Assembly: GCA_001804315.1 (NCBI GenBank)
Contig: MHFT01000028.1
Span: forward strand, 1-38,114
Reading direction: 5' to 3'
Source of the DNA: Omnitrophica bacterium RIFCSPLOWO2_12_FULL_50_11
GTDB lineage: Bacteria > Omnitrophota > Omnitrophia > Omnitrophales > Danuiimicrobiaceae
Length of the DNA stretch: 38,114 nucleotides
Positions within the stretch are counted from its first letter, which is position 1; each line of letters opens with the position of its first letter. The position numbers were made by a program, and so were the translations under genes. Of the stretch, positions 20,082 through 29,433 are shown in pieces. The notes under the pieces are model-generated. The model did no database searches. It saw nothing but the letters and a program-made list of their open reading frames with translations, and had not been told where the DNA came from.

Positions 20082-20471
20082 TTATTCTCCTCGGAATTGT
20101 TCCCAGAGGCGGTTGAATCGTGACGCATAAATGAGTTCGTAAAGGTGAATCTTCTCCGGGAAAAGTCTTCCGATGAGCGCCTTTAGTTTTTCCTGTTCGA
20201 TCTCAATATCTACCTTTTGATAATCCGTGTTGAGGATCAGAAATGTGATCTTGTCCGCAGCCCTTTGGATTTCAGACAAGTTTTCCTCCTCGAGTTCTAG
20301 CTCATAACTGGCGCAGATGTCTTTTAACTGACTCATCACTTCCTCATGTTTCATTCCAAGCCTGGTCCCACACGTGCAAACGATCTCTTGGCCAAACTCA
20401 AAAAGCGTTACATCATACTCGCTTGAACACTTCGGACAGCGGATTGCCATTAGATTACCGGAGAGAAGCAT
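20082..20471 (-). CDS. small zinc-ribbon/helical protein at the end of the pst operon
   Basis: IRCPKCSSEYDVTLFEFGQEIVCTCG (CPxC...CxCG) plus predicted helical C-terminus; TGATG overlap with upstream pstB stop. Confidence 0.75.
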   Translation of the reverse strand: MLLSGNLMAIRCPKCSSEYDVTLFEFGQEIVCTCGTRLGMKHEEVMSQLKDICASYELELEEENLSEIQRAADKITFLILNTDYQKVDIEIEQEKLKALIGRLFPEKIHLYELIYASRFNRLWEQFRGE

Positions 20472-21229
20472 CAGCCAAAACGGCCCGTAATGTAATCCTC
20501 GGTCTCCCTTTTCTTCGGTGTTGTAAATAACATTTTTGTTTCTCCAAATTCGATGAGCTTTCCAAGGTAAAGATAGGCGGCCCAGTCACTGACTCGTGCC
20601 GCTTGCTGCATATTGTGCGTCACAATGACAATCGTGTACCGGCACTTAAGCTCAAGCATTAACTTTTCTATTTTAGCGGTAGCAACAGGGTCAAGCGCCG
20701 AGCAGGGCTCATCCATTAAAAGAATTTCAGGTTCAACCGCAATGAGCCGTGCAATACAAAGCCTCTGCTGCTGTTCCCCTGAAAGCATCAAGGCAGAACC
20801 GGATAACCGATCTTTGAGCTCATCCCACAAACCGACCGCGCGAAGACTGCGCTCGACAATGTCTGGCAAAGCTTGTTTCGAGGCGAGGTGGTGAATCGCA
20901 GGACCATAGGCAATATTATCAAAAATGGAAATTGGAAAAGGGTTTGGCCGTTGAAACACCATACCTACTTTCTTTCTCAGCCTGATCAGGTCAACTGAGG
21001 AACCGTAAATATCTTCGCCGTCGATTTTCACGCTTCCTTCTATTCGCGCACCTTTGATCAAATCGTTCATCCGGTTCAAACATCGAAGGAGGGTTGACTT
21101 ACCGCACCCGGACGGACCGATGATGGCCGTAATTTCGCGCTCTCGAATCCGGAGCGTGACGTCTTGAAGCGCTTGAAAGGTACCGTAATAGAAATTCAAA
21201 CCGCGAATCTCGATCTTTCCCTCAACCAT
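20471..21229 (-). CDS. pstB: phosphate ABC transporter ATP-binding protein (copy 1)
   Basis: [68 protein letters not shown]; start [16 protein letters not shown]. Confidence 0.95.
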
Positions 21230-21974
21230 AACGACCCGAAACGTAACCTTCTGTCCGCTCGTCTTTAGGAATCGTAAAAACTTTTTCCGTCTCGTCGATC
21301 TCGACAAGCTCGCCCATCAAAAAGAACGCCACACGATCGCTCACACGCGCCGCTTGCTTCGTATTATTCGTCACCAAAACGAGTGTATACTGCTTGTTCA
21401 ACTCGCGCATTGCTTCTTCGATCTTCGCCGTCGAAATAGGATCCAGTCCCGAACAAGGTTCATCAAATAAGATCACCTCCGGCTCCGCCGCAAGCGTTCT
21501 TGCGATGCAAAGCCGCTGCTGCTGCCCGCCTGAAAGCTTCATCGCAGATTCGTGAAGTCGATCCTTTACCTCGTCCCATAAGAACGCGGCTTTCAAGCTC
21601 CTTTCAACGATTTCTGAAAGCCGCTTGCGGCTTCGAATGCCGTGGCGTCTTGGACCATAAGCCAAATTTTCAAAGACCGTAATTGGAAGCGGCGTCGGAA
21701 TCGCAAATACCATTCCGACGCTCTTTCTTAACTGCGGCACTTCCCAGTCCCGGTAAACATCTTTTCCGTCAATCCGTACGGAGCCTTCGTACGAGAATCC
21801 TGGACTGAAGTCGTTCATCCGATTGAGCGTTCGCAAAAAAGTTGTTTTTCCGCTGTTGGCCGGACCGATGATCCCTAAAATTTCATGATCATAAATCGTC
21901 AGGTTGACCTTTTTGAGCGCTAAAGCGCCGTCATAATAAGCGGAAAGGTCTTGGACCTGGATCTTTTCTACCAT
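21222..21974 (-). CDS. pstB: phosphate ABC transporter ATP-binding protein (copy 2, divergent Q- and H-loops)
   Basis: [68 protein letters not shown]. Confidence 0.93.
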
Positions 21975-22825
21975 TGTTTTTTGGTGCGGAAATAGCTGCG
22001 AATGACGATACCAACGATATTCATCAGCACCGCTAAAGCAACCAGCACGAGCGCCGTCCCGTACTGCAGCTCAAGTTTCACATTGGGTACCTGTGTCGAT
22101 AACACATAGAGATGATAAGGCAAGGCCATCGCCTGGTCAAAAACCGATTTCGGAAGTTTCGGCAGGTAAAAGGCAGCAACGGTAAAAAGGATGGGGGCTG
22201 TCTCCCCTGCGGCGCGGCTTAAACTTAAGATCGTGCCCGTTAAAATACCAGGCAGGGCATGGGGTAAAACCGCATGGCGGATCGTTTGCCATTTCGTGGC
22301 GCCGAGAGAATAGCTCACTTCGCGAAACGACTTGGGTACCGCTTGAAGTGCTTCTCGTGAGGCTGTGATGATGACCGGGAGAGACATCACCGCAAGGGTC
22401 AGAGATCCAGCCAAAATAGAAGCTCCAAAATTCAAAAACACGACAAAAAAACCCAAACCGAAAAGCCCGTATACAACGGAGGGAACGCCCGCTAAGTTAA
22501 CAATCGCTAGTTCAATCAATCGAGTGAGCCGGCCTCGTTTCGAATATTCCGATAAATAAATCGCGGAAAAAATACCGACCGGAAGCGCAAACACGACTGT
22601 CCCCACGACAAGACAAAAAGTGCCGAAAATTGCAGGAAAAATCCCGCCGGCTTTCATCCCCATTCGTGGCAGAGCGGTCAAAAATTCCCAGCTTAAAACA
22701 CTGGATCCGCGCACGACGATGATTCCGACCACCAAAATAACGGGCAGGACGACGACCAGCGTGGAAAGTAAAAGAAAAAAGAAAACGATCTTTTCCGTCC
22801 TTCTCGGATTCATCAGCTGATTCAT
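21968..22825 (-). CDS. pstA: phosphate ABC transporter permease PstA
   Basis: GIFPAIFGTFCLVVGTVVFALPVGIFSAIYLSEY; SYSLGATKWQTIRHAVLPHALPGILTGTILSLSRAAGETAPI. Confidence 0.95.
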   Translation of the reverse strand: MNQLMNPRRTEKIVFFFLLLSTLVVVLPVILVVGIIVVRGSSVLSWEFLTALPRMGMKAGGIFPAIFGTFCLVVGTVVFALPVGIFSAIYLSEYSKRGRLTRLIELAIVNLAGVPSVVYGLFGLGFFVVFLNFGASILAGSLTLAVMSLPVIITASREALQAVPKSFREVSYSLGATKWQTIRHAVLPHALPGILTGTILSLSRAAGETAPILFTVAAFYLPKLPKSVFDQAMALPYHLYVLSTQVPNVKLELQYGTALVLVALAVLMNIVGIVIRSYFRTKKQW

Positions 22826-23691
22826 CTCGCTTTCTTCCTATGGAGAAACCAATCCGCCAGAAAATTCACAGCAAAAGTGATCACAAAAAGAAGGATCGCA
22901 ACCGCAAACAGTGCGAAATAATGGTCACTGCCCTGCACGGTCTCGCCCATTTCAGCCGCAATCGTTGCGGTCATTGTTCGAACCGGTTGAAAAATGCTCT
23001 TTGGAATCACAGCAGCGTTTCCTGTAATCATCATCACCGCCATCGTTTCTCCGATCACCCTGCCAAAGCCTAACATGACAGCAGCGATAATACCGGATGC
23101 AGCGCTCGGAAGGATAATCCGTCGAATCGTTTGCCACTTGGTCGCGCCCATGGCGATTGAGCCTTCCCGGTAGGTTTTGGGAACTAAATTGAGCGCATCT
23201 TCCATGATGCTCACAATCGTCGGCATGGCCATAAACGCGAGCATCACGGAACCGGAGAACGCCGTCAGTCCCGTTGACAGCCCAAACATATTCTTCACGA
23301 GCGGCACCAACGTGACTAATCCAATGAAGCCAAGCACGATACTCGGAATTGCCGCTAACAATTCAACCCCCGCTTTGAGCACTTCCCGGAGCCATCCGGA
23401 CGCAATTTCGCCAATAAAAATAGCGCATGCGATTCCGAGGGGAACCGAGATGGCCGTCGCTCCCAACGTTACCCAGAGTGACCCTAAAATTAACGGCAGT
23501 GTCCCAAATTGAGGAGGTTCGGAAATCGGATACCAATGCTTCCCCAGGAGAAACTTGATCACGCTAAACTCCCGAAAAAGCATCAGTCCTTCTTTTAAAA
23601 GGAAAACGAAGATCAGGATTACAAAAATGATGGACGCCATACCGCTCGCGAAAACGAGGCCTTCGACAACCCGTTCGTAATATCTACGCAT
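22822..23691 (-). CDS. pstC: phosphate ABC transporter permease PstC
   Basis: LPLILGSLWVTLGATAISVPLGIACAIFIGE; AIPSIVLGFIGL; SIAMGATKWQTIRRIILPSAASGIIAAVMLGFGRVIGETMAV. Confidence 0.95.
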   Translation of the reverse strand: MRRYYERVVEGLVFASGMASIIFVILIFVFLLKEGLMLFREFSVIKFLLGKHWYPISEPPQFGTLPLILGSLWVTLGATAISVPLGIACAIFIGEIASGWLREVLKAGVELLAAIPSIVLGFIGLVTLVPLVKNMFGLSTGLTAFSGSVMLAFMAMPTIVSIMEDALNLVPKTYREGSIAMGATKWQTIRRIILPSAASGIIAAVMLGFGRVIGETMAVMMITGNAAVIPKSIFQPVRTMTATIAAEMGETVQGSDHYFALFAVAILLFVITFAVNFLADWFLHRKKAR

Positions 23692-23701
23692 GAGAAACCT
23701 C

Positions 23702-24222
23702 GAGAGAAAGTAGAGAGTAGAAAGTAGAGAGCAGAAAGTAGAAAGTAAAAAATACAGAGATTAAAAGTAGAGTAAGAATGCGCATTTGGACAAAACGGAA
23801 AAATAACGGTTCAGCCGTGACACGAAGCTTGTTCAACAAGCGGCGGCAGAGCATCTCATCCTCATGCACGGGGAGGGTACAATCGTGCGTCCAGGTGAGC
23901 TCAGATTTTACTCCGTTCTTTGAGGCAGGATAAGGACTTACAACCAATTTCCGGCGGCCGCCGGAAATTGGCTTGGGCAAAAGGCCGGGAAATCGATCCA
24001 CGCTTGCGTCCGCCCTCACCGTTCCGGAACTCCTTTACCCTTTCTCTTGCCGACTGCTTTTTGAAGAGTACCTGAATGCTCATAAGAGGCACGGTTACAG
24101 GGAAAACAGGAAACCAACAGGCTTGACTCGCCGTAACAGCGGTTTGATCGCACCCGCCTCGACTTCTATTTGTAGATCGCCCGACGAGTTTTCTCTCTCT
24201 ACTCTCTACTCTCTGCTGTTTG
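23702..24222. repeat. inverted pair of GA-rich word repeats (GTAGAGA/GTAGAAA) enclosing a non-coding-looking core
   Basis: Left gagagaaagtagagagtagaaagtagagagcagaaagtagaaag (23702-23745); right tctctctctactctctactctctgctg near 24192-24218. Confidence 0.6.
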
Positions 24223-25089
24223 CTCTTTCATCTTCGGAAGGGGGACGAAATCCATATCGAGCACAATGGATTGTCCTCGTTCGCTCAACACAAAGTCAAT
24301 GAACTCTTTCACGATTCCGTCTGGCGTCCCAGGAAGATAAAAAAGGAGCGGCCGCGCAAGCGGATACCTGCCATCGACCGCATGCTCAAGTGTTGGTTCG
24401 ACATAATCGCCGGCTTCTTCCCCAAAAATGCTGACCGCCTTTACCGTCGGTACTAAATAACCCATTCCGACATAACCAATAGCGGCGGGATTGTCGGCCA
24501 CTTCTTGTACGATCGCTTGGGAAGAAGGCATCATGAGCACGGTCGGCGCAAATTCCTCAGGCCCCTTACTGTTTCCCTTCCGCACGACTTCCTCGAGAAC
24601 GTAAACGTGCGTGCCCGAATTCCGCTCGCGCGAAAGGACCAGAATCGCTTGATCTCTCCCGCCTGCTCCTTTCCAATTGGTCAGGTGGGCGGTAAAAATG
24701 GCTGAGAGTTCGTCAATCGTCAGTTGAAACACAGGGTTTGCAGGATGAACGACAAAAGCAAGCGCATCGATTGCAGCCACAATTTCTTTTACCTCGCGTC
24801 CGTTTTGAGTCGCAAGCGTCAATTCCTTCTCGGAAATGTCGCGCGATGACTGCACAATATCGCAAGTCCCATTAATGAGCGCGGCAATGCCGGTTCCAGA
24901 TCCGCCTCCTGTGACGGCGATCAAGGCATCGGGATGTTCCTCCATAAAGGCTTCCGCCCAGGCCTGGCCCAAATTCACCATCGTGTCAGACCCTTTGATC
25001 TGAATAGAACCCCGGCTCTGCGCAAGTGCGGACGTACTTAAAGTAAGCGCCAGGATCAATCCCAAAAGCGTACAAAATTGTCTTCGCAC
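24199..25089 (-). CDS. pstS: phosphate-binding protein PstS
   Basis: Signal peptide VRRQFCTLLGLILALTLSTSALAQ; SIQIKGSDTMVNLGQAWAEAF; VTGGGSGTGIAALINGTCDI. GTG at 25089 preceded by AGGAGG. Confidence 0.94.
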   Translation of the reverse strand: MRRQFCTLLGLILALTLSTSALAQSRGSIQIKGSDTMVNLGQAWAEAFMEEHPDALIAVTGGGSGTGIAALINGTCDIVQSSRDISEKELTLATQNGREVKEIVAAIDALAFVVHPANPVFQLTIDELSAIFTAHLTNWKGAGGRDQAILVLSRERNSGTHVYVLEEVVRKGNSKGPEEFAPTVLMMPSSQAIVQEVADNPAAIGYVGMGYLVPTVKAVSIFGEEAGDYVEPTLEHAVDGRYPLARPLLFYLPGTPDGIVKEFIDFVLSERGQSIVLDMDFVPLPKMKEQTAESRE

Positions 25090-25167
25090 AAAATCCTCCT
25101 TTCTCGGCTGCAAAAGCCAGCCTACTCTATCAAAATAAAATGAAAACGCAAGCTGAGACGGGCAGTG

Positions 25168-25549: not shown

Positions 25550-27004
25550 CTAAAACTTCCATATCAAGTCGAGGAGAAACAAACGCGTTTCTTCGTCAAG
25601 CCTATTCGCGGATAGGATCCCCACAGCCCCGGAGTCGGCTGTGATGCTGTTTGTAAAGAATCCGGTCAGCCCAGCGGTCAACCTGTCCGTCACTGCATAC
25701 TGAGCAGAAAAGACACTGCCGCGCTTATTGGCAAAGCCGAAGTCGCTATCCACAAATTGACCGACGACAGCGTTCGGGTCAATGTAACGATATTCATAAC
25801 CTAATTCCCACGTTCCTTGTTCTTTCGCTTTGCCCAGCTTAAGACCAAGTGCCCAAGCTTTATCCAGTTCACCTCCAGCGGCTGTCAACGCTCCGTTACT
25901 CACGTTGGTCGCCCAATCGAAGAAGGCCCTGATCGGGTACTTTTTGGCAAACGGCGTCAGCTTGGCCTCGTTGTAGATCTCAACAACATCAAAGTCCTCT
26001 GCCGAGAATCCACCCGCCGTGTTCGTGACGATGGTCGATGGATTGCCATTCGCGACGCTCGTGCCGCCATCGGAGGTGAGATTCGTAAAATCGCTGTAGT
26101 TGTAGTAAGAGAAAACATTCTTTAACTCAACAGGCTCAGTCATTCCCACCTCGATGACTGACTTAGCGCCGAGCTGCCAAGCGAAAAGTTCGGCGTCGCC
26201 GCTCGCGCTCGCCTCTTCCAGAATCAGCTGGCCGGCAAGCCCGTAGACATCAAGATCGAAGTCAAGTGTATCAATCGGCTGGACTACAATTTTTTGATAA
26301 AATCCTTCTGGCATGACGTCGGGATCCCAAACGACCCGAGAGGATCCTTCCAGAAATGGATTTGCGAACTTACCACCTGTCATTTCAACTTTCTTAATCG
26401 GACCGACTTCTGCCCAACCCGGCTGATACGTTGCATAAACTTTCTCGATCGAAATTGGTTTGAAGGTGAAACTATCGTCAAAGGTCGTGTTGGTCGACCC
26501 CGCTTCGGTATTAGCTGCTTGGGAGGCTAAGCCAAAACCAGCGGTCATATGAGGATGGAATTTCTTTTCCCAACCGAACCGCAAACGATACCGGAATCGA
26601 TTTCGGTCATTGGCTTTGTCCGGACCATCCGTTCTGTCGGATGGTTCCCAGCGCAATCGGAGATCGCCTTTAAAATCAAGATCCTTAAGCCATTCGTCCG
26701 CTCCACCGATTTTTTCCTCCAAGCGTTCGTCAAACATGCTTTGGAATAGTCCTTCGCCCATTCCTGATTCAACCGGCGAAGCAACCGCTTTGACTTCAGG
26801 TTGCCGAGCCTCGAGCACCTTAATCTTTTGCGCTTGTTCGCTGATGATTGCTTGCATGTGCTCCATCTGTCTTTTGAGATCATCCACGACCGCAGAAAGA
26901 GCGGCGACATCGCTGACATCCGCCCGTAAGTGGACAGGCCAATGAGTCATCAAGCCCATTGTCGTCAAGATGAGTACGCATCCTCGAATCAAATTCAATT
27001 TCAT
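25550..27004 (-). CDS. putative outer-membrane porin with N-terminal coiled coil
   Basis: Signal peptide MKLNLIRGCVLILTTMGLMTHWPVHLRA; coiled coil LSAVVDDLKRQMEHMQAIISEQAQKIKVLEAR; beta-rich FKGDLRLRWEPSDRTDG...; C-terminal FLLDLIWKF with terminal Phe. Confidence 0.8.
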   Translation of the reverse strand: MKLNLIRGCVLILTTMGLMTHWPVHLRADVSDVAALSAVVDDLKRQMEHMQAIISEQAQKIKVLEARQPEVKAVASPVESGMGEGLFQSMFDERLEEKIGGADEWLKDLDFKGDLRLRWEPSDRTDGPDKANDRNRFRYRLRFGWEKKFHPHMTAGFGLASQAANTEAGSTNTTFDDSFTFKPISIEKVYATYQPGWAEVGPIKKVEMTGGKFANPFLEGSSRVVWDPDVMPEGFYQKIVVQPIDTLDFDLDVYGLAGQLILEEASASGDAELFAWQLGAKSVIEVGMTEPVELKNVFSYYNYSDFTNLTSDGGTSVANGNPSTIVTNTAGGFSAEDFDVVEIYNEAKLTPFAKKYPIRAFFDWATNVSNGALTAAGGELDKAWALGLKLGKAKEQGTWELGYEYRYIDPNAVVGQFVDSDFGFANKRGSVFSAQYAVTDRLTAGLTGFFTNSITADSGAVGILSANRLDEETRLFLLDLIWKF

Positions 27005-27127
27005 GATCAGCTCCTTTCTTTTTCTTGCCGCTGTGCTCTCTTTCAAATAATGACGCTCAATCAAAATCAAGGTGACGCAGGGCAAATGGAAAAAGCGGGT
27101 GAAGTAAACGAAATAGTAAAAGAAGCG

Positions 27128-27220: not shown

Positions 27221-28492
27221 TTAAGATGGGACGGTGCGGAGGGTAAACGAAAAGCGCGAACCTTTGCCCAAACAGCTTTCACAGGAGACGGCTCCCCCAT
27301 GAGCTTCGATAATATGTTTCACGATCGCAAGACCAAGGCCAGATCCACCCAGGTGACGCGATCTTGCTTGGTCCACCCGATAAAAACGTTCGAACACACG
27401 CAGGACAGCCGACTCTGGAATGCCGATTCCGGTATCGTCAAGGAAAACGGTTACGCAGCTGTCCGACACGGCCGCATCAATGGTGATCGTTCCATCATCT
27501 TGATTAAACTTGATCGCATTGTCGAGTAAATTGACGATGGCTTGCTTTAGTTTATCTTTGTGGGCTAGTACTTTTGGCAAGGCCTGACTCGACACTCGAT
27601 TGCCGACGCGGAGACGTTTCTGATGAATCAGCGGCTTGACGACATCAATCGACTCCTGAATGATGAACCCGACGTCGACAGGTTTGAGCTCTAGCGCTGC
27701 TTCGTGCGCTTCTAAGCACGAAAGTTCGAGCAGGCCGTCGATCAATCCGGCAAGTCTTGCTGCGTCTTCCTCCATGATCGCCAAAAAGCGTTGAGTTTCC
27801 TTCGCATCTTCAAGAGCTCCGCCACGGAGTGTTTCGATAAATCCTTTAAGCGACGTGATCGGCGTTTTGAGTTCGTGCGAAACGTTCGCAACAAATTCGC
27901 GCCTCAAATTTTCCAAGCGGCGGATCTCCGTCACATCCACAAACACCAGCAAACCCATCTTGTCCCCTGAAGTCCTCCGAATCCCAACTGCATTGACCTT
28001 GAGAAACTTTCGGACAGGAGTATGGAGATCTATTTCACCTGTCATTGACTTTGGATTCGCCAGCGCTCGGTCAACCAGATCATCCAAAGCAGCATTACTG
28101 AAGGTTTCTATGAGTGTTTTTCCAACGTTCCTATTTTCCGGCACCTGAAAGAGAGATTGCGCACTCGGGTTCATGAAAATAACGCGCTTATTTGCGTCGA
28201 CCGCGACAATGCCTTCTATCATATGGTCTAAAATGGCGCGTGCTTGAACTTTATCCTCTTCCAGCTCACGCATCCTTCTTTTCAAAAAAGAACCGAGTTC
28301 ATTTAAGGAGCGTGCGAGGCGTTCTAACTCGCCGCTTTTTTCAAACGAAAGCCTTTGGTCGTATTCTCCTTTGAGGAAAGATTGCACCGCCTTATCAAAT
28401 CCAAGAACTCTTCTTTTGCGAAAGCCGTATCGTAAACGGCCGATGCCAATACAAACAAGCAGACCCATCAGAAAACCAATGAATAGTTTCAT
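27221..28492 (-). CDS. phoR: phosphate regulon sensor histidine kinase PhoR
   Basis: HAMP/PAS-like region, FVANVSHELKTPITSLKGFIETL H-box, ATPase DNAIKFNQDDGTI and GGSGLGLAIVKHI; adjacent to phoB and pst. Confidence 0.92.
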   Translation of the reverse strand: MKLFIGFLMGLLVCIGIGRLRYGFRKRRVLGFDKAVQSFLKGEYDQRLSFEKSGELERLARSLNELGSFLKRRMRELEEDKVQARAILDHMIEGIVAVDANKRVIFMNPSAQSLFQVPENRNVGKTLIETFSNAALDDLVDRALANPKSMTGEIDLHTPVRKFLKVNAVGIRRTSGDKMGLLVFVDVTEIRRLENLRREFVANVSHELKTPITSLKGFIETLRGGALEDAKETQRFLAIMEEDAARLAGLIDGLLELSCLEAHEAALELKPVDVGFIIQESIDVVKPLIHQKRLRVGNRVSSQALPKVLAHKDKLKQAIVNLLDNAIKFNQDDGTITIDAAVSDSCVTVFLDDTGIGIPESAVLRVFERFYRVDQARSRHLGGSGLGLAIVKHIIEAHGGAVSCESCLGKGSRFSFTLRTVPS

Positions 28493-28498
28493 TTGTCT

Positions 28499-29191
28499 TC
28501 AGGCATCCAGATCAAACCGATAACCGGCATTTTTGACGGTGACGATCCGATGCCCTTCGGATTTGATCTTCTTCCGTAATTGCCCAATATGCATATCTAC
28601 CGTGCGTGTTTCAATATTGAACGATGGATCGTAGCCCCAGACTTGATCGAGCAGATGTTCCCGTGACAAAACTCTGCCGCGAGCTTGAATGAGTGTTCTT
28701 AGCAGTTCGTACTCTTTAGACGTTAGGTGAACGGGTTTCGACTTGACCCTTATCATGTATTTATCTAAATCAAGTTCAAGCGTGCCGCTTTTGAGCAAAG
28801 TGCCAAGCGGTTTTTCTTCGCGCCGCCTCAACACCGCTTTCACTCTAGCGATGAGCTCTTTAGGGCTAAACGGTTTGGTCACATAATCATCCGCTCCTAA
28901 CTCCAATCCTAAAACTTTGTCTATTTCTTCACCTTTCGCAGTCAGCATGATGATTGGAATGTGACACGTGTCTTCGTTATTTTTTAATATCTTGCATATT
29001 TCAAGCCCACCCAATTCAGGAAGCATTAAGTCTAAAATCAAAAGCGCGGGCTTTTCCCTGCGCGCTTTCTCAAGACCAAGATCTCCACTGGCTGCCGTAG
29101 AAACACGATATCCCTCTCGCTCGAGATTGTATTTCACCAACTCAAGAATATTCTTCTCATCCTCGATAATCAGGATTTTTTCCTGTGCCAT
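28499..29191 (-). CDS. phoB: phosphate regulon response regulator PhoB (OmpR family)
   Basis: MAQEKILIIEDEKNILELVKYNLEREGYRVSTA; LILDLMLPELGGLEICK; C-terminal winged helix. Track start at 29314 reads through the tRNA and is rejected. Confidence 0.94.
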   Translation of the reverse strand: MAQEKILIIEDEKNILELVKYNLEREGYRVSTAASGDLGLEKARREKPALLILDLMLPELGGLEICKILKNNEDTCHIPIIMLTAKGEEIDKVLGLELGADDYVTKPFSPKELIARVKAVLRRREEKPLGTLLKSGTLELDLDKYMIRVKSKPVHLTSKEYELLRTLIQARGRVLSREHLLDQVWGYDPSFNIETRTVDMHIGQLRKKIKSEGHRIVTVKNAGYRFDLDA

Positions 29192-29232
29192 ATGTCTGTG
29201 GTTAGGAATTCTATGGGTGGAGTGCTGCAGAA

Positions 29233-29306
29233 TCGGGACGGCGGGATTCGAACCCGCGACCCCACCCACCCCAAGGGTGTGCGCTACCGGGCTGCGCCAC
29301 GTCCCG
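29233..29306 (-). tRNA. tRNA-Pro (anticodon GGG), no encoded CCA
   Basis: Minus strand CGGGACGTGGCGCAGCCCGGTAGCGCACACCCTTGGGGTGGGTGGGGTCGCGGGTTCGAATCCCGCCGTCCCGA; full cloverleaf, anticodon loop TTGGGGT. Confidence 0.95.
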
Positions 29307-29310
29307 AAAG

Positions 29311-29433
29311 ACAATTCAAAATTAAAAATTCAAAATGTAAAATTTCGGAAGCACCTTCGGGGCTTTTTACAAATAAAAGCTCACGCAGTGAGCTACCAAA
29401 ATTTTTAATTTTGCATTTTTAATTTTTAATTGC
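29311..29433. repeat. inverted pair of AT-rich word repeats (AATTAAAAATTCAAAAT)
   Basis: acaattcaaaattaaaaattcaaaatgtaaaattt (29311-29345) vs aaaatttttaattttgcatttttaatttttaattgcc (29397-29433). Confidence 0.65.

Follow-up and report, generated by a model that had tools for sequence, protein, structure and literature searches.

The window analysed here is a stretch of 38,114 nucleotides from the genome of Omnitrophica bacterium RIFCSPLOWO2_12_FULL_50_11, and it carries a Pho-type gene cluster on the minus strand. Transcription proceeds from a PhoR/PnpS-like sensor kinase gene (27221..28492; 391.2 bits against the PnpS model, which has a cut-off of 400, and 298.3 bits against the PhoR model) through a putative porin gene (25550..27085; Porin_5, PF16930), lying between the kinase and the pst genes, to the gene of the phosphate-binding protein PstS (24199..25113; TIGR02136, 226.5 bits, cut-off 206.6). 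The permease genes pstC (22822..23691; TIGR02138, 300.1 bits, cut-off 196.45) and pstA (21968..22825; TIGR00974, 288.7 bits, cut-off 193.45) come next, and two pstB-like genes follow, copy 2 (C2; 21222..21974, 250 aa) and then copy 1 (C1; 20471..21229, 252 aa). Both copies thus lie together with pstS, pstC and pstA, as is expected of a PstB. Upstream of the kinase gene, a phoB-like open reading frame extended to a TTG codon (28499-29314, minus strand) overlaps a tRNA-Pro gene (29232-29307, minus strand), and its true start is probably internal (MAQEKILIIEDE). Directly after C1 stands a frame of 129 codons (20082-20471, minus strand) with an N-terminal CPKC...CTCG zinc-ribbon-like pattern and with no match in Pfam, NCBIfam or PHROGs. 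The PhoU gene of this genome is located outside the pst operon (G000:C97:12456-13016), whereas in most relatives phoU follows the pstB pair.

With 389.3 bits for C1 and 343.7 bits for C2, both proteins exceed the cut-off of the NCBIfam PstB model TIGR00972 (343.2 bits), and therefore automatic annotation names both of them plain PstB. Their ATPase motifs differ from each other. In C1, Walker A, the Q-loop (Gln93, codon CAA at 20951..20953), Walker B and the H-loop (His205, codon CAC at 20615..20617) are intact, and the signature (20771..20785) is acidic and reads LSGEQ, with Glu152 encoded by GAA at 20774-20776. In C2, the signature LSGGQ is intact (21522..21536; Gly149-Gly150 confirmed by codon), the Q-loop Gln is replaced by Ala91 (GCG at 21702..21704), the H-loop His by Asn203 (AAT at 21366..21368), and Walker A reads GPANSGKT (21840..21866), in which Asn40 (AAC) stands for the former second glycine. 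Since the Walker A Lys and the Asp-Glu of Walker B are still present in the C2 of the window, binding of ATP is expected. Neither subunit holds the full set of motifs of a classical homodimeric PstB, and C1 and C2 are therefore PstB paralogues and not classical PstB proteins. Re-reading of the frames, the motifs and each of these codons singly bore out the coordinates, the strand and all motifs of an initial annotation, which had been made from the sequence alone and had drawn attention to the complementary losses.

An ATP bound by an ABC dimer lies sandwiched between the Walker A, Walker B, Q-loop and H-loop elements of one subunit and the signature of its partner (PMC3434365). Because every site pairs elements of both subunits, all deviations would fall into a single site of a C1-C2 dimer, while both sites of either homodimer would be defective. 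The division into one consensus and one degenerate site, proposed by the initial annotation, thus holds given a head-to-tail heterodimer. The degenerate site had been described as off consensus at three positions; these three are correct, and the altered Walker A of C2 (Asn40) has to be added to them.

The distribution of the pair was followed by a census and by a pattern scan. C1 and C2 are the only PstB-level genes of the window genome, in which the next-best ABC ATPase reaches 166 bits against the PstB model. The pair is present in 25 of 58 related genomes, although in one of them the contig ends within C1, ahead of its signature. The remaining PstB-level genes of the census are 32 unpaired genes (27 fetched for typing and five from an earlier set), all of them canonical, with Gln, His and the Gly at signature position 4 kept in 32/32. 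Two states only were therefore seen, a canonical gene alone or C2 followed by C1, and the census contains no lone C1 or C2. For 15 of the 25 pair-bearing genomes, which are incomplete assemblies, the search at E<=1e-50 turned up no PstB besides the pair. Outside the census, the H-loop of C2 was used as a fingerprint (V/I-T-N-N-x-K-Q-A-A-R as degenerate DNA), which selects for the H-loop Asn and leaves the Q-loop and the signature of the partner free of selection. The fingerprint matches 26/26 C2 loci and 0/5 canonical loci. Of 384 genomes sampled from the phylum, 137 contain it, and the reversed pattern, used as a control, has no match. In a collection of all species it identified at least 114 stretches. 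Among the matches listed are Omnitrophota, Planctomycetota, Acidobacteriota, Aminicenantes, WOR-3/Stahlbacteria, Elusimicrobia, Margulisbacteria (WOR-1, Saganbacteria), Desantisbacteria, Edwardsbacteria, Spirochaetia, Melioribacter, Kiritimatiellaeota/Lentisphaerae, Hydrogenedens, a Gottesmanbacterium and Ozemobacteraceae, together with the complete genome of Sorangium cellulosum So0157-2 (Myxococcota). A match in Paenibacillus forsythiae (L104) was taken as a chance match and rejected, as no PstB-like frame is present in the locus. By record titles, which can be wrong for metagenome-assembled genomes (MAGs), the distinct complete pairs span more than ten phyla, and the taxonomic breadth of the asymmetric pair is clearly wide even so. 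In several genomes a canonical pstB lies within about 12 kb of the asymmetric pair, on the same contig in four loci (L106, L113, L119, L141) and also in G017:C28, G020:C20 and G036:C23, as if two pst operons were neighbours.

The motif losses of the two copies segregate together. When proteins of near-full coverage were typed by their motif columns in an alignment, 165 C2, 151 C1 and 44 canonical proteins were obtained, and none was of mixed type. At least 115 distinct complete pairs were recovered after removal of duplicates, and the complementary pattern is present in 115/115. In these pairs the C2 Q-loop residue is Ala in 110, Ser in three, Thr in one and Asp in one, the H-loop residue of C2 is always Asn, and position 4 of the C1 signature is Glu in 104, Asp in nine, Tyr in two and never Gly. 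C1 retains Walker A, Gln and His across the pairs, and position 4 of the C2 Walker A is mostly Asn and at times Gly or a basic residue. Lys43, Asp171 and Glu172 of C2 are invariant in 44 diverse members, and so is SGGQ. Thus in every pair the deviations of both subunits share the same composite site, given the standard head-to-tail dimer of nucleotide-binding domains (NBDs), and an altered signature of C1 faces the degenerate site. The co-segregation that the initial annotation had proposed as a test on tandem pairs was found without a single mixed pair, and the random or absent substitutions that would have spoken against it did not appear. Recurrence on this scale rules out chance or isolated substitutions. 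Position 4 of the C2 Walker A is basic in eight pairs, from Aminicenantes, WOR-3, Gottesmanbacteria and Ozemobacteria loci (e.g., L035, L117, L073, L174), and the C1 of all eight has LTGE, LTDE or LSAD and never LSLE. A charge pairing across the degenerate site, between this residue and the C1 signature, is possible, and it is confounded by phylogeny.

C1 follows C2 at every C2 locus with enough downstream sequence, once two apparent exceptions are resolved. At one of these (L138) the C1 partner is found some 960 nt further downstream. In a Spirochaetaceae MAG (L061, 4814-7366, plus strand), a long open frame loses its homology to C1 beyond Walker B, and the break is a frameshift, an assembly error or a fusion. 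Among the matches listed, pstA is directly upstream of C2 in 93/93 loci with room for it and phoU is downstream of the pair in 64/73, giving the conserved order pstA-copy2-copy1-(phoU). The 8-nt overlap of C1 and C2, which had been called consistent with coupled translation, is real in the window; the gap between the two genes varies (median 10 nt over 115 pairs, more than 200 nt in four), which rules out coupling by the overlap as a general feature.

In a tree of 122 proteins, a single branch sets all C2 proteins apart (SH-aLRT 100) and a second one all C1 proteins (96); canonical PstB lies between the two groups. Both branches persist when the motif columns are left out (99 for C2 and 89 for C1), and from these quick trees each type most likely arose once. 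C1 and C2 are under strong purifying selection, the median dN/dS being 0.049 for C2 (27 comparisons) and 0.064 for C1 (12 comparisons). The distance matrices of the two are correlated (r = 0.77; highest value in permutations 0.18), mostly because of joint inheritance, so that this value alone is no proof of contact. AlphaFold2 monomer models show intact ABC folds with a pLDDT of 96.3 for C2 and 93.7 for C1. The solved structures nearest to C2 are those of Escherichia coli PstB in 9k3s and 9k3x (9k3x: TM 0.95, rmsd 1.2), and direct alignment shows that Q, H and LSGGQ are canonical in E. coli PstB.

We consider it very likely that C1 and C2 are the two unlike ATPase subunits of one PstSCAB phosphate importer, with a predicted obligate heterodimer beneath the PstC/PstA permease pair and with one consensus and one degenerate ATP site. 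The complete site, made of Walker A, Walker B, Q and H of C1 and the LSGGQ of C2, would hydrolyze ATP and power import. The degenerate site, made of the altered Walker A, Q-loop and H-loop of C2 and the acidic LSxE signature of C1, would bind ATP through the retained Lys43, Asp171 and Glu172 and hydrolyze it slowly or not at all, its role being structural or regulatory. Since PstC and PstA are unlike, the ATPase pair could sit in a fixed orientation. The motif pattern and its strict pairing, the conservation, the operon context and the selection are observed directly; that the subunits heterodimerize, that the second site has lost turnover and what this site does are what we infer. From established ABC structures, the side chain at signature position 4 is expected beside the gamma-phosphate, and an acidic residue there is presumably the same kind of change as G551D in CFTR. 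This mutation causes a severe gating defect (PMC3434365). In human ABC proteins, every degenerate site faces a changed signature in the partner domain, and a change in the H-loop often accompanies it (PMC7756269). Changes in degenerate sites affect the signature most often and the catalytic Glu of Walker B next (PMC7756269); a change of this Glu, frequent in exporters and not universal, is absent from C2. As MRP1 with Asn at the H-loop of its consensus site also keeps transport activity (PMC7756269), the second site may retain slow turnover.

The strongest competitor accepts the heterodimer and supposes that both sites hydrolyze ATP, the substitutions retuning kinetics or the coupling to the unlike permeases. 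C2 keeps its Walker B Glu, and PstC and PstA are themselves different proteins. However, four motifs of one composite site deviate together, one of them by an acidic side chain expected near the gamma-phosphate, and we regard hydrolysis at both sites with mere retuning as rather improbable. C1 and C2 might also form separate homodimers, as two alternative Pst complexes for different conditions. Some genomes do have several pst operons, and an Enterococcus faecalis pstB1 mutant is rescued by an excess of PstB2 alone (PMC12096839). This arrangement has little chance of being correct, as either homodimer would have both sites defective, with two LSxE signatures or with two sites lacking Gln and His, and as the types are adjacent behind a single pstA and neither was seen alone in the census. 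Either of two mutations of E. coli PstB, Q160K in the signature or E179Q in Walker B, is enough to abolish transport (PMC5775613), which makes it improbable that a homodimer carrying two charged signatures functions. Equally slight is the prospect that C2 stands outside the transport motor as a regulatory ATPase-like protein linking Pst to PhoU/PhoR signaling. The frequent position of phoU after the pair fits such a role, and the conformation of E. coli PstB has been proposed to drive PhoR signaling (PMC5775613). Against this, C2 has lost neither the Walker A Lys nor Walker B and its SGGQ is invariant, and C1, which has no canonical signature, needs a partner to supply one. That one or both copies are duplicates decaying under relaxed constraint, for which motif losses in both copies might speak, is next to impossible given intact frames, a dN/dS of 0.05-0.06 and identical substitutions across phyla, and the pseudogenization that could have undone the original proposal is likewise ruled out.

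The pair predicted to work as a C1-C2 heterodimer can be set beside several known systems. The E. coli PstSCAB (PDB 9k3s, 9k3x, 9k3y) belongs to the same family by sequence and fold and shares the partners pstS, pstC and pstA, but its two ATPase subunits are identical copies of a canonical PstB and both of its sites are complete, where the pair described here has unlike subunits with complementary losses. In Firmicutes such as E. faecalis, two pstB genes are likewise adjacent in a pst-phoU operon, and their products PstB1 and PstB2 are about 60% identical and functionally not equivalent (PMC12096839). In the E. faecalis pair, which has been studied genetically, the Walker A, signature and H-loop of both proteins are identical to those of canonical PstB (PMC12096839), unlike C1 and C2, which rules out that the pair described here is of the Firmicute type. 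Bacillus subtilis PstBA and PstBB have been modeled as a mixed complex, with degeneracy not mentioned (PMC11466899). The heterodimers TM287/288, BmrCD and TAP1/TAP2 likewise have one deviant composite site with the facing signature altered; these are exporters, and typically their Walker B Glu is changed (PMC7756269), whereas C1/C2 belong to an importer in which this Glu is kept and the Q-loop, the H-loop and the Walker A glycine are changed instead. RbsA and NupO are importers that also have one predicted dead site, but they are of other families, have their NBDs fused into a single polypeptide, and lack the Walker A Lys or residues of Walker B (PMC11466899). The initial annotation had not known complementary motif loss as a described feature of Pst, and no paper describing it was found in the literature searched, where coverage of subscription journals and bioRxiv was thin. 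The best reading is that this PstB pair would work like a degenerate-site heterodimer, an arrangement known from drug exporters and not found described for phosphate uptake.

As the textbook case of high-affinity phosphate import, Pst is portrayed with a homodimer of PstB. The pairs reported here point to a widespread and apparently ancient version of it, apparently used by many uncultured bacteria, in which the two ATPases differ from each other and one site is predicted to be silent. This version has been overlooked because annotation calls both genes PstB. What degenerate ATP sites do is a long-debated question, and small separate soluble subunits make the role of such a site testable by residue swaps in each subunit. 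As a more speculative extension, which we consider possible but not likely, the silent site might be a built-in sensor. ATP bound at the degenerate site would prevent the PstB pair from opening fully, which would limit the cost to a single ATP per phosphate. The state of the site would be read by PhoU and the PhoR-like kinase as a report on phosphate supply. If one ATP is used per cycle, phosphate uptake would be cheaper than assumed in energy-limited uncultured phyla, and if the sensor reading is also true, such bacteria would use a cheaper, self-reporting Pst.
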